From contig NZ_RZGZ01000001.1 in the NCBI RefSeq assembly GCF_003990045.1, positions 62,001 through 126,000 of the forward strand: 64,000 nt of DNA, written 5' to 3'. Shown piece after piece: positions 3,044 to 60,356 of this stretch; the first letter of the stretch is position 1, and every line of letters starts with the position of its first letter. The notes under the pieces were generated by a model. The model saw only the letters and a program-made list of their open reading frames with translations. It was not told the origin of the DNA and ran no database searches. Source of the stretch: Labedella endophytica (GTDB taxonomy: Bacteria > Actinomycetota > Actinomycetes > Actinomycetales > Microbacteriaceae). Made by a program: the position numbers and the translations under genes.

Positions 3044-3099
3044 GAAGTGCGGACTTCCGCCCTCTGATGGGCGGATGAGAGGGCGAAAGTCCGCACTTC
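3044..3099. repeat. 56-bp palindromic element, family B (GAAGTGCGGAC arms)
   Basis: The element starts GAAGTGCGGACTTCCGCCCTC-like and ends with the inverted arm finishing GTCCGCACTTC. The arms are about 21 nt with a 14-nt spacer. Other copies lie at 33304-33359, 38420-38475 and a diverged one at 48058-48113; all are 56 bp. It sits between convergent genes, so it may also act as a bidirectional terminator. Confidence 0.85.
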
Positions 3100-3156
3100 C
3101 GCGGGATGGGGTCGCGGTACGTGAACGGTGCGCGGTGGGCTCGGGTCCGGAGCTCA

Positions 3157-4425
3157 CTAAGGGTTTGGCGGCGCCGGCGGCGGAGGCGGTACCGACACCG
3201 GAAGCGATGCCGCAGGCGGTGTCGGTGCCGGCGCGGACCGCGGTCGGCGTCGGTGGCGGAGGAGCCCGGGGGCCGCGACGGCGAGCAGGAGTCCCGCTCC
3301 CGCCGCTCCGACGAGGAATCCCCACCGGGGATCGGTCGCGTCGGCGGCCGCTCCCACGGCGATCGCCGCAACCGCCGCGCCCGCGTTGACGGCGGTGTTG
3401 ATCCAACTCGAGGCCTCGGTCCGCACCTCGACGTCCGTCAGGTCGTCCGCGAGCAGGTAGCCCGTGATGAGGGACGGCGCCAGGAAGAAGCCCACGAGCG
3501 CGAGGCCGGCGGCCAGGGCGGCGACGCCGGGCAATGCCGCCATCAGGGCGGAGAGGGCGATCATCGTCGCGCCGCAGACGAGCAGGCGGCAGACGAGGCT
3601 CGAGCGCCAGGGGCGACGTCCGTAGAGCAGCCCGCCGATCGCGCTGCCCCCGGCAAAAGCCGCGAGGAGCAGCCCAGCGATCCCCACCGAGCCCTGCGCC
3701 TCCGCGACGGCGGGGGCCGCGACCTCGACGGTCCCGAGTACGACGCCCACGCCGAGGAGGGCGAGGAGGACGAGGGCGAAACCCGGCTGGGACAGGGGTC
3801 GCGCCGCGCGGGGCGGGGTCGTCGCGCTCGGGAGGCGAGACCGCGATGCGGCGCTGCTCGTCATGCCGAGGGTGCCGACGACGGAGAGGGCCGCGGTCGC
3901 GACGAGGGCCGTCGGCGGGTCCGTGAGTGTGATGATCGCCGCCGCCAGGAGGGGTCCTCCCGTGAAGAGGAGCTCCTCCGACACCGCGTCGAGGCTGTAC
4001 GCCGCAGTGCGAGCCGGCCCCGCCGGGGTGAGCGAGCCCCAGATCACGCGCATCGAGGCGCCGAGCGGCGGAGGGAAGACGCCCGCGATCGCGGCGAGAC
4101 CGATCACGACGGCGGCGGGGGTCCCGTCGGCGGCCGTCGCGACGGCGACTCCGATGAGACCCGCGGCGTACAGCACGCTCAGGGAGCTCAACGTGAGCCG
4201 TTGTCCGTGGCGGTCGACGAGCCGAGCGCGGAACGGCGACGCGATCACGTTGGCGAGTCCGAATGCGCCGGTCGCCGCCCCGGCGATCGCGAACGAGTCG
4301 GTGGCCTCCTGTACGGCGTAGAGGAGGACGAGCGTGACCATGGCGAGGGAGAGTCGCCCGAGCAGGGCCGGGAGGAACACCCGGAGCGCTCCGGGAGCGC
4401 CGAGCGCGTCCCGGTAGCCGCTCAC
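3157..4425 (-). CDS. MFS transporter (probable efflux)
   Basis: A 422-residue membrane protein with about 12 hydrophobic segments typical of the major facilitator superfamily. It has a loop-2 basic motif in RARLVDRHGQRL and a proline-rich C-terminal tail (PVSVPPPPPAPPNP). Its ATG overlaps the stop of the ArsR-type regulator gene by 4 nt, so the two are translationally coupled. The pairing suggests a drug or metabolite exporter controlled by that regulator. The substrate is unknown. Confidence 0.85.
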   Translation of the reverse strand: MSGYRDALGAPGALRVFLPALLGRLSLAMVTLVLLYAVQEATDSFAIAGAATGAFGLANVIASPFRARLVDRHGQRLTLSSLSVLYAAGLIGVAVATAADGTPAAVVIGLAAIAGVFPPPLGASMRVIWGSLTPAGPARTAAYSLDAVSEELLFTGGPLLAAAIITLTDPPTALVATAALSVVGTLGMTSSAASRSRLPSATTPPRAARPLSQPGFALVLLALLGVGVVLGTVEVAAPAVAEAQGSVGIAGLLLAAFAGGSAIGGLLYGRRPWRSSLVCRLLVCGATMIALSALMAALPGVAALAAGLALVGFFLAPSLITGYLLADDLTDVEVRTEASSWINTAVNAGAAVAAIAVGAAADATDPRWGFLVGAAGAGLLLAVAAPGLLRHRRRPRSAPAPTPPAASLPVSVPPPPPAPPNP

Positions 4426-4967
4426 GGGGCGGTGTTCCGGCCGGGCGCACGCTCCGCCGCGACCTCGAAGAGCGCGATCGTGGAGGCGACGCGCACGGCG
4501 TCCGGGGAATCGGCCGCGACCGCCTCGTCGTGCAGGATCCGCCCGGCCTCGTCGGCCAGGCCTCGAACGCGTTCCCAGGCGCCCGGCGGCAGCGCCACCT
4601 CGACGTCGGTGAAGGTGAAGCGGGTCCCGTCGCGGTAGCGGGAGCTCCGCGCCGCGAGCTGGGAAGCGAGGGCCGAGAGGAGCGCGGCGACGTCGTCCGT
4701 GGGCCCGGCGGACAAGGCTTCGCCCGACGCGGGGTCGTGCCGGTAGCGCTTCGCGGTGCCCCCGCGCACGCGCGTCTCTTCCACGAGCTGGACGAGTCCG
4801 GCCTGAGCCAGCCGGCGCAGGTGGTAGCTCACGTTCGCTTGCGTCTCGCCGAGCGCCCGCGCCGCTTCGGCCGCGCTCAGGGACTCGCCGGTGAGGAGGG
4901 AGAGGAGGCGGAGGCGAAGGGGGTGGGCGACGACGCGCAGTCCGTCGAGGTCGTCGGAATCGGTCAC
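4422..4967 (-). CDS. ArsR-type winged-helix transcriptional regulator
   Basis: A 181-residue protein. An N-terminal winged helix (~8-75) includes HPLRLRLLSLL, AAEAARALGETQANVSYHLRRLAQAGLV and a wing with RVRGGTAKRYR, as in ArsR/HTH_20 regulators. There is no obvious metal-binding cysteine cluster, so the ligand is probably not a metal. The GTG start has no Shine-Dalgarno sequence. TAGGGT lies exactly 6 nt before it, which fits a leaderless transcript. It is coupled to the MFS gene downstream. Confidence 0.85.
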   Translation of the reverse strand: MTDSDDLDGLRVVAHPLRLRLLSLLTGESLSAAEAARALGETQANVSYHLRRLAQAGLVQLVEETRVRGGTAKRYRHDPASGEALSAGPTDDVAALLSALASQLAARSSRYRDGTRFTFTDVEVALPPGAWERVRGLADEAGRILHDEAVAADSPDAVRVASTIALFEVAAERAPGRNTAP

Positions 4968-5049
4968 CGGTTCACCCTACGGATGATCCGGCCCACCGTC
5001 AAACATTTGTTTGGGGGTATGTTCGTCGGGTGGATGCCGTCCCGCCCGC

Positions 5050-5105
5050 GAGGTGTCGCAATCTTTTGCCTGGCTGACCGATGTGGCAACAGATCGCGAC
5101 ACCTC
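5050..5105. repeat. 56-bp palindromic element, family A (GAGGTGTCG arms)
   Basis: The left arm reads GAGGTGTCGCAATCTTTTGC and the right arm is its near-perfect reverse complement ending GCGACACCTC. This is one of seven copies in the window, all 56 bp. The right end overlaps the stop codon of the beta-galactosidase gene, so it could serve as its transcription end. Confidence 0.9.
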
Positions 5106-59859: not shown

Positions 59860-59897
59860 CCGTCTCCGCCGCGGAGACGCTCCAGCGAGCGTGCGCC

Positions 59898-59961
59898 GTT
59901 CCCCGAGCGCACCGATCGGCGCCGGCTCCGGAAGGGGGATGCTTCGACACGCTCAGCGACC
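59898..59961. repeat. Palindromic element of the TTCGAC-N3-GCTCAG type (decayed left arm)
   Basis: The right arm GCTTCGACACGCTCAGCGACC-like sequence is intact; the left arm (GTTCCCCGAGCGCACCGATC) is degraded. It lies between convergent genes. Confidence 0.6.
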
Positions 59962-59984
59962 GAGTGGGCTGCAGTGCGTGACCG

Positions 59985-60269
59985 TCAGCGGCCGATGGGG
60001 CGCTGCTTCCCTGCCTCGGCCCCGTGCTCGGCCTCGAAGGCGCGGAGGCGGCGCGTCGCTCTGAGGGCGCGGACGGCGCTGATCGCCGCGAGCGCCAGCG
60101 AGACACCCGCGAGGAGCCAGGCCAGGAGAGGATCGTTCGCCTCGCCGACGGCCCGGGCGATGCCGGAGGCCGCGATCAGGAGCGCGAGAACGGTCATCAC
60201 GATCCCGTAGGTCCGATCGCGCGTGATCGCCATCCGCTGCTGGATCAGTGATGGCGTCGGATCGGACAT
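59985..60269 (-). CDS. Small hypothetical membrane protein
   Basis: 94 residues with two membrane segments (YGIVMTVLALLIAASGIARAV and PLLAWLLAGVSLALAAISAV) and a basic C-terminal tail (RALRATRRLRAFEAEHGAEAGKQRPIGR). The start at 60269 is used because TAGCGT lies 7 nt upstream; the longer frame would run through the family A repeat and is rejected. Family not recognised. Confidence 0.7.
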   Translation of the reverse strand: MSDPTPSLIQQRMAITRDRTYGIVMTVLALLIAASGIARAVGEANDPLLAWLLAGVSLALAAISAVRALRATRRLRAFEAEHGAEAGKQRPIGR

Positions 60270-60300
60270 GGTCCCGACGCTACCCGACCCCACCTCCCGT

Positions 60301-60356
60301 GAGGTGTCGCATTCTGTCGCCTGATCGGTCGGTGAGGCAGCAGATTGTGACACCTC
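60301..60356. repeat. 56-bp palindromic element, family A
   Basis: One base different from the copy at 55961-56016, including the spacer. The flanks ACCTCCCGT and ACGG are also shared. It lies directly past the alpha-galactosidase stop codon. Confidence 0.9.

Follow-up and report, generated by a model that had tools for sequence, protein, structure and literature searches.

The window analysed here, a 64,000-nt stretch of Labedella endophytica (C1:62001-126000 of its own genome, G000, which comprises 3.67 Mb in 14 contigs), carries eleven copies of a palindromic element of 56 bp that occurs in two subfamilies, A and B. Copies of the element are dispersed over the genome, lie mostly just past stop codons, occupy many slots that are common to species of the genus, and measure 56 bp or deviate by a base or two. 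The explanation preferred here, and held tentatively, is that of a REPIN-like interspersed palindrome served by a DNA-binding or mobilising protein other than a RAYT; REPINs are known as passengers of RAYT transposases. A dimeric DNA-binding protein, probably a past or present mobiliser, would contact the two arms at a defined spacing, whether the DNA is a duplex or a hairpin. Because such a protein would read both arms at this spacing, symmetry and length would be kept and the letters of the spacer would not; the near-constant length would most likely derive from its binding of both arms at a set distance in DNA.

Anatomy, length and placement of the palindromes

Each unit consists of two inverted arms of 21-22 bp around a spacer of about 14 nt. 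The arm is composed of an outer box (GA-N-GTG), a middle that is specific to the subfamily and an inner box (about GTCGCC), the consensus from profiles being GAGGTGTCGCAATCTGTTGCC for A, GAAGTGCGGACTTTCGCCCCC for B and GAGGTGTCACTTTCGGTCGCC for BP8.4, a metagenome-assembled genome (MAG) of the Microbacteriaceae; by position in the arm profiles, the inner boxes lie about 21 bp apart, centre to centre. In A, symmetrical conserved sequence extends about 7-11 bp past each end (CCACCTCCCGT directly before GAGGTG), and 56 bp is the core only; the base at position -1 is T at 75 of the 82 ends. In B, conservation extends about 4 bp beyond the 56-bp core, and the end profiles read CCGT followed by GAGG in A and about C(G/C)(C/G)(C/G) followed by GAAG in B. 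A third arm, or half-element, accompanies 17 of 28 B copies; it is co-oriented with the nearer arm and lies further out by 30 bp (14 copies) or 31 bp (three copies). In 41 A copies, seven scattered offsets were seen, once each. Pairwise identity of the spacers between copies amounts to 0.43 and 0.41, compared with 0.33 for shuffled sequences. The predicted folds are strong, with -34.5 to -41 kcal/mol in four copies and a mean of -34.4 kcal/mol over 50 copies. A described RNA family was rejected as the identity of the element, the Rfam 15 scan of the window having given no match above the gathering score.

In the own genome, a pattern search with exact arms and a free gap, allowing totals of 41-71 bp for A and 42-72 bp for B, placed all 27 A and all 17 B sites at 56 bp; reversed control patterns gave no match for either subfamily. 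The genome-wide length distribution of exact-arm copies is not broad, and this constitutes the stronger evidence on length: the spacers have drifted, yet all 44 of these copies measure 56 bp. A covariance model, with 150 candidates scored, recovered at least 76 loci, of which 69 measure 56 bp, five 55 bp, one 57 bp and one 54 bp, and the weight of this distribution is reduced by the fact that the model was built from 51 copies, every one of 56 bp, and favours that length. A further 56-bp B copy outside the 76 lies at C2:1013028. In G001, one of three congeners considered (G001, G002 and G003, all of the same genus), 28 of about 31 loci were listed; 21 have 56 bp, five 55 bp, one 57 bp and one 54 bp, and three more copies of 55 bp each came from a family search with the B pattern. 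All 30 loci listed for BP8.4 are 56 bp long. The fixed length of 56 bp claimed from the sequence alone therefore proves typical and not absolute, since 7 of the 76 own copies and 7 of the 28 listed G001 copies have 54, 55 or 57 bp.

Copy numbers vary strongly, from at least 76 in the own genome to about 31, 12 and 3 in the congeners. The exact A pattern was found in 5 of 40 relatives and the exact B pattern in 12 of 249 family genomes; outside the genus, the B matches are element-like only in G091 (55 and 56 bp) and G257 (56 bp), and those in six other family genomes (47, 51, 61, 62, 72 and 72 bp) have scattered lengths and were taken as chance. Micrococcus sp. EYE_212 carries four 55-bp palindromes with the same outer arm (L035, L038, L039, L042); three come near to perfect symmetry, and two of the four have GAAC and GTTC on both sides. 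Matches in Nocardioides (48, 59, 67 and 81 bp) were kept apart, their length not being constant and the two inspected representing 22-bp tandem arms; in these (L034 7170-7290 and L040 1080-1200), the GAGGTGTC arm stands in 22-bp tandem direct and inverted units. Matches of 47, 62 and 68 bp in Saccharothrix, Streptomyces and an Actinomycetes MAG, and two of 47 and 56 bp in G031, from another family, were likewise taken as chance and left uncounted. In viral contigs the A pattern occurred in no stretch, and the B pattern in one, of 69 bp, also taken as chance.

The sequence-only reading had described A and B as unrelated. This description is contradicted by the arm profiles: A and B match in register, with only 25 of 10,000 column shuffles scoring as well, and the in-register scores with the BP8.4 arms were equalled by 1 of 10,000 shuffles for B and by none of 10,000 for A. 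GA-N-GTG is common to the outside of all three arms, the inner ends are similar, the middle differs most, and the BP8.4 arms are intermediate between A and B. Furthermore, A in G000 is replaced by B in G001 at three orthologous slots (C2:803552, C11:34595 and C11:56272), all with 56 bp in both species; at C11:34595 the element is displaced by about 20 nt between them. Judging from the matching profiles and these three exchange slots, A and B are sister subfamilies of one element of Labedella and some other Actinobacteria.

Placement was evaluated against gene calls from a purpose-written codon model. The 76 own copies are distributed over 46 tandem, 24 convergent and 5 divergent gaps, with one inside a called gene, so that 70 of 76 occupy tandem or convergent gaps. 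A stop codon lies within 35 nt of 51 of the 76, the median distance being 21 nt to the stops of adjoining genes and 82.5 nt to the starts; in several A copies the terminal T together with the following GA is the stop codon itself. Divergent gaps are under-used (5 of 75 copies versus 51 of 196 gaps, Fisher p = 0.0003; the comparison gaps, all 56 bp or longer, come from the stretches used and include those that carry elements). In G001, the 28 listed copies comprise 13 tandem, 11 convergent and 3 divergent placements and one inside a called gene.

Orthologous slots and the level of constraint

Comparison with the congeners gave a divided picture of insertion sites. On the one hand, 18 of the 28 copies listed for G001 coincide with G000 slots (for C8:315068, only one flank is immediately adjacent); on the other hand, in the synteny of window 30000-49500 against G001, only the copies at 39599 and 45115 have 56-bp orthologs, whereas five of seven (33304, 34783, 35319, 38420 and 48058) have none. 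Those at 33304, 34783 and 35319 are missing also in G002 and G003, the remaining sites being not judgeable in these two genomes. The insertions are consequently shared at many orthologous sites, not at all of them. At the B slot C8:285645 of G000, G001 has a different 60-bp palindrome (GTCGCCGGTCTGCACCGATCGA..., L139 999-1058). Among eight element-free G001 slots, this palindrome is the exception: in the other seven, the best inverted repeat does not exceed the best of 60 shuffles. The strong predicted folds at some element-free G001 slots are not palindromes, and they were scored without a shuffle control.

Of the 18 ortholog pairs, 12 are 56/56 bp and six show a length difference of one or two bases. 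A net length change is absent from 12 of the 18 element pairs and from 19 of the 36 flanks, which were taken at up to 56 bp; agreement within one base is seen in 17 of 18 element pairs compared with 23 of 36 flanks. Gap events per substitution, obtained with the same aligner, amount to 26/173 in same-subfamily elements and 82/264 in flanks. Length is accordingly held near 56 bp and not copied exactly, and a machine that measures the element, as had been proposed on the strength of the constant length, is not shown.

Nine of the pairs belong to the same subfamily and are 56/56 bp. Within them, 72 of 378 arm sites differ, as opposed to 65 of 126 spacer sites (52%); at fourfold-degenerate sites nearby, 922 of 2570 differ. 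By these figures the spacer evolves almost neutrally. The nine pairs contain 10 double changes that pair in both species, compared with 1.18 expected with random partners (maximum 5 in 1000), and 7 base pairs gained pairing. In an alignment of 51 sequences, whose rows are strongly related through subfamily structure, paired cells account for 81.6% versus 69.2% after shuffling and double-changed cells number 236 versus 109; the paired-cell share, the double-changed cells and the covariation score all lie above all 500 shuffles.

The kind of mismatch that is tolerated bears on whether this pairing is kept in DNA or in RNA. A hairpin acting as RNA should show G-U rather than A-C mismatches on the transcribed strand. 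In 50 tandem-gene copies of 56 bp (41 from G000 and 9 from G001), oriented by transcription, 46 G-U and 53 A-C mismatches were counted on this strand (95% interval of the G-U share, 0.36-0.57), and the fold of the sense strand is the stronger one in 22 of 50. The same count on eight tRNAs from several organisms, found among the loci examined, gave 17 G-U and 0 A-C, a control that is partly circular: ARAGORN itself favours G-U pairs. Since no sense-strand excess of G-U over A-C is found, the pairing appears to be kept at the level of DNA rather than RNA, with a minor RNA role possible. The conserved RNA hairpin that had been offered as an alternative thus receives no support from wobble orientation and was set aside.

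Mechanism, rival explanations and known systems

The search for a mobiliser relied on PF01797, the domain of RAYT and IS200 transposases, with a threshold of E up to 0.001; matches were obtained in 5 of 14 control genomes. The DUF559 (nuclease-like) gene that lies between a B element with a third arm and another B pair (C2:899785-900917; L094 about 6880-7920) was rejected as an autonomous copy, given that a comparable place on C7 has another gene between the arms, presumably an aldo-keto reductase by its sequence, and that DUF559 has two matches in the genome. Since no RAYT/Y1 transposase was found, the protein would be of another kind or lost. Positions after a stop codon and before the next promoter would be the least harmful ones for a copy, and copies there may also insulate genes.

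Several observations weigh against the REPIN-like reading with a protein of this kind. PF01797 gave no match in any of seven genomes (own, G001, G002, G003, BP8.4, Micrococcus EYE_212 and Curtobacterium MCBD17_032), which extends the reported lack of a RAYT in the window to the whole own genome and six other carriers; a RAYT was rejected as the mobiliser on this ground. No arm-bracketed gene recognisable as an autonomous copy was present in the twelve stretches examined, and, as 18 of the 28 copies listed for G001 occupy slots shared with G000, the data do not demonstrate movement at present. Neither a target-site duplication nor a clean empty site could be read: the flanks of A belong to the palindrome, the four aligned empty sites and those from synteny are diverged, and the empty places in G001 differ beyond the element. 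Regarding the pairing, the nine ortholog pairs contain 20 base pairs lost through a change on one side and 3 lost through changes on both sides. In the 51-row alignment, neither the 20 pairs that show double changes nor the 56 further pair types stand out from the shuffles, 165 and 45 of 500 reaching these counts. The ortholog-based case for a length constraint, in which the elements lack the larger changes of the flanks, is moderate, as only changes of at least two bases separate elements from flanks (1 of 18 versus 13 of 36). Finally, the placement behind stop codons suits terminators equally well.

This last point leads to an account that is rather unlikely overall, in which the palindromes are bidirectional intrinsic terminators without a T-run, spread as a sequence family, whose RNA hairpin ends transcripts or protects the mRNA 3' end. 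The elements lie directly downstream of genes, as intrinsic terminators do; the prevalence of tandem and convergent gaps (70 of 76), the proximity to stops (51 of 76 within 35 nt), the under-use of divergent gaps (5 of 75 versus 51 of 196), the strong predicted folds (-34.5 to -41 kcal/mol in four copies, mean -34.4 in 50) and the other 60-bp palindrome replacing the element at one G001 slot all agree with it. A terminator, however, does not require a spacer of constant length, the sense-strand G-U excess is lacking, and seven of the eight element-free G001 slots have no replacement inverted repeat above shuffles. A static site of a host nucleoid, insulator or chromosome-organising protein, in which a pair of arms with fixed spacing and a third arm 30 bp off are kept by selection, is likewise improbable. 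Such a site would account for the two conserved boxes per arm with inner boxes about 21 bp apart, for the near-fixed length and Watson-Crick symmetry without RNA bias, for the shared slots (18 of 28 listed G001 copies) and for the exchange of A and B at three of them with the same length. It is difficult to reconcile with the swing in copy number among congeners from at least 76 to about 31, 12 and 3, and no protein was identified; for a housekeeping site it would be unusual to find the B pattern in 12 of 249 genomes of the family, with element-like matches in two genomes beyond the genus, and the A pattern in 5 of 40 relatives.

The symmetry itself could also be a product of mutation, if template switching during replication copied arm onto arm and produced paired changes without selection. 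The double changes that restore Watson-Crick pairs, the mismatches without G-U bias and the clustered arm changes in the 45115 ortholog are compatible with this process, which as a full account is very doubtful: it leaves unexplained both the arm boxes common to unlinked places and the fact that all 44 exact-arm copies measure 56 bp. Of similarly low probability is an in-place exchange of 56-bp palindromes at Labedella gene-end slots by non-RAYT machinery, an idea that arises because A and B are swapped at three slots, each of 56 bp, and a 60-bp palindrome stands at a fourth. Such machinery would measure the distance between the two arms it recognises in DNA, and would rewrite or swap the element with its length unchanged.

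Among known systems, intrinsic terminators without a T-run have a strong inverted repeat close behind stop codons, as seen here; the present elements differ from them in being a sequence family of near-fixed length without sense-strand wobble bias. Miniature inverted-repeat transposable elements with terminal inverted repeats are likewise short, dispersed, inverted at the ends and devoid of coding capacity. In contrast to these, no target duplication could be read here, the spacer is hardly common to copies and no autonomous partner was found.

REPIN-like remains apt as a description: inverted arms, a drifting spacer of near-fixed length, compensatory changes, intergenic position, half-arms and partly lineage-specific sites are all present. 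For REPINs, PMC3116915 describes spacer length and hairpin capacity as apparently critical and compensatory changes as common, and an inverted pair of conserved arms, a variable spacer of set length, compensatory changes, extragenic location and singles besides doublets are shared features (PMC3116915). The scale is different: the commonest 16-mers of SBW25 occur 1,067 times, as compared with at least 76 loci here, and the 16-mers of GI REPINs are separated by 71 bp, as compared with 56 bp here (PMC3116915). Unlike the REPIN/RAYT system, there is no PF01797 match in the own genome or the six other carriers, and the end consensus has no GTAG-type tetranucleotide. By this comparison, the element behaves like a REPIN but fails on the RAYT side, and would best be termed REPIN-like, not a REPIN. 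It resembles the CGTC-tagged REPs (PMC3733652) in being a short palindromic family apparently without a dedicated transposase, and is unlike them in its end tag; the term 'actino' does not occur in the main text of PMC3733652. A survey reports subclass 1.1, the IS200-type class, as the only one of these enzymes in Actinobacteridae (PMC6006769). No description of the present elements was found in open-licence PMC papers.

Taken together, REPIN anatomy and a similar evolutionary signature occur in Actinobacteria, with no such enzyme found in seven carriers; either another enzyme would build REPIN-like elements, or the anatomy would be kept for a host function. The ortholog pairs furthermore speak to constraint at the DNA as against the RNA level, a point usually left open for such repeats.

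The window copies and further set-length palindromes

The eleven full copies reported from the sequence alone were all recovered at their positions, each with 56 bp from outer arm to outer arm; two B half-arms had been overlooked. Among the A copies, 5050..5105 provides, with its outer two bases, part of the TGA stop for the called gene 5104-8403 (-), and 34783..34838 stands between divergent called genes, its site being without an element in G001, G002 and G003. In 35319..35374 the inner arms have changed together and pairing is retained, as had been claimed; its GA lies within the TGA stop of 34871-35320 (+), and G001, G002 and G003 have no element at this site. The copies at 39599..39654 and 45115..45170 have 56-bp orthologs in G001, identical at 40 of 56 and 37 of 56 positions, respectively; in the latter, double changes with pairing kept are found at pairs 17, 18 and 21, and the arm changes are clustered. 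The copy at 55961..56016 lies between convergent genes, and that at 60301..60356 differs from it by one base.

The B copy at 3044..3099 is also located between convergent genes. At the site of 33304..33359, G001, G002 and G003 have no element; its third arm, at 33274..33292 (+), is co-oriented and begins 30 bp outside the left end, and was one of the two half-arms overlooked. Beside this element, tandem copies of a 17-bp unit (GGAGGGCCAGCGGGTGT and variants) occupy 33397-33481. The sites of 38420..38475 and of the diverged copy 48058..48113 are without an element in G001. The other overlooked half-arm, at 48125..48143 (-), belongs to the diverged copy, is co-oriented with its right arm and has its outer end 30 bp beyond.

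Other intergenic palindromes of set length also occur in these genomes. Family C, TGCGTACGC...GCGTACGCA (also TGCGTACGCAAC...GTTGCGTACGCA), measures 60 bp at 28 of 29 places (nine in G000, 19 in G002, of which one is 50 bp, and one in G003; none in G001), with copies at window 48405-48464, C1:171043, C1:195576, C2:291858 and others, and each of its ends is a 10-bp palindrome. Its constant length says little, because it is conserved over most of its length; A and B, unlike family C, are the informative case for length. Family D, CCTGAGC..GTCGAAGGG...CTTCGAC..GCTCAG, has 59 bp in three of three copies among the loci examined (window 33136-33194 and 37435-37493, and L023 1601), and similar stretches occur in congeners. 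A near-perfect long palindrome, CTAAAAACCTCGTA...TACGAGGTTTTCAG, is found at window 12570-12619 with a second copy on C2 (L094 10125-10186), the core being about 50 bp in both. Two copies were seen of GCGCTGCAG...CTGCAGCGC, of 62-64 bp, at window 44142-44205 and L117 2375-2436, and CCGGGTGGACGC...GCGTCCACCCGG, of 60-61 bp (L102 185-245 and L107 11629-11688), is present in both G000 and G001.

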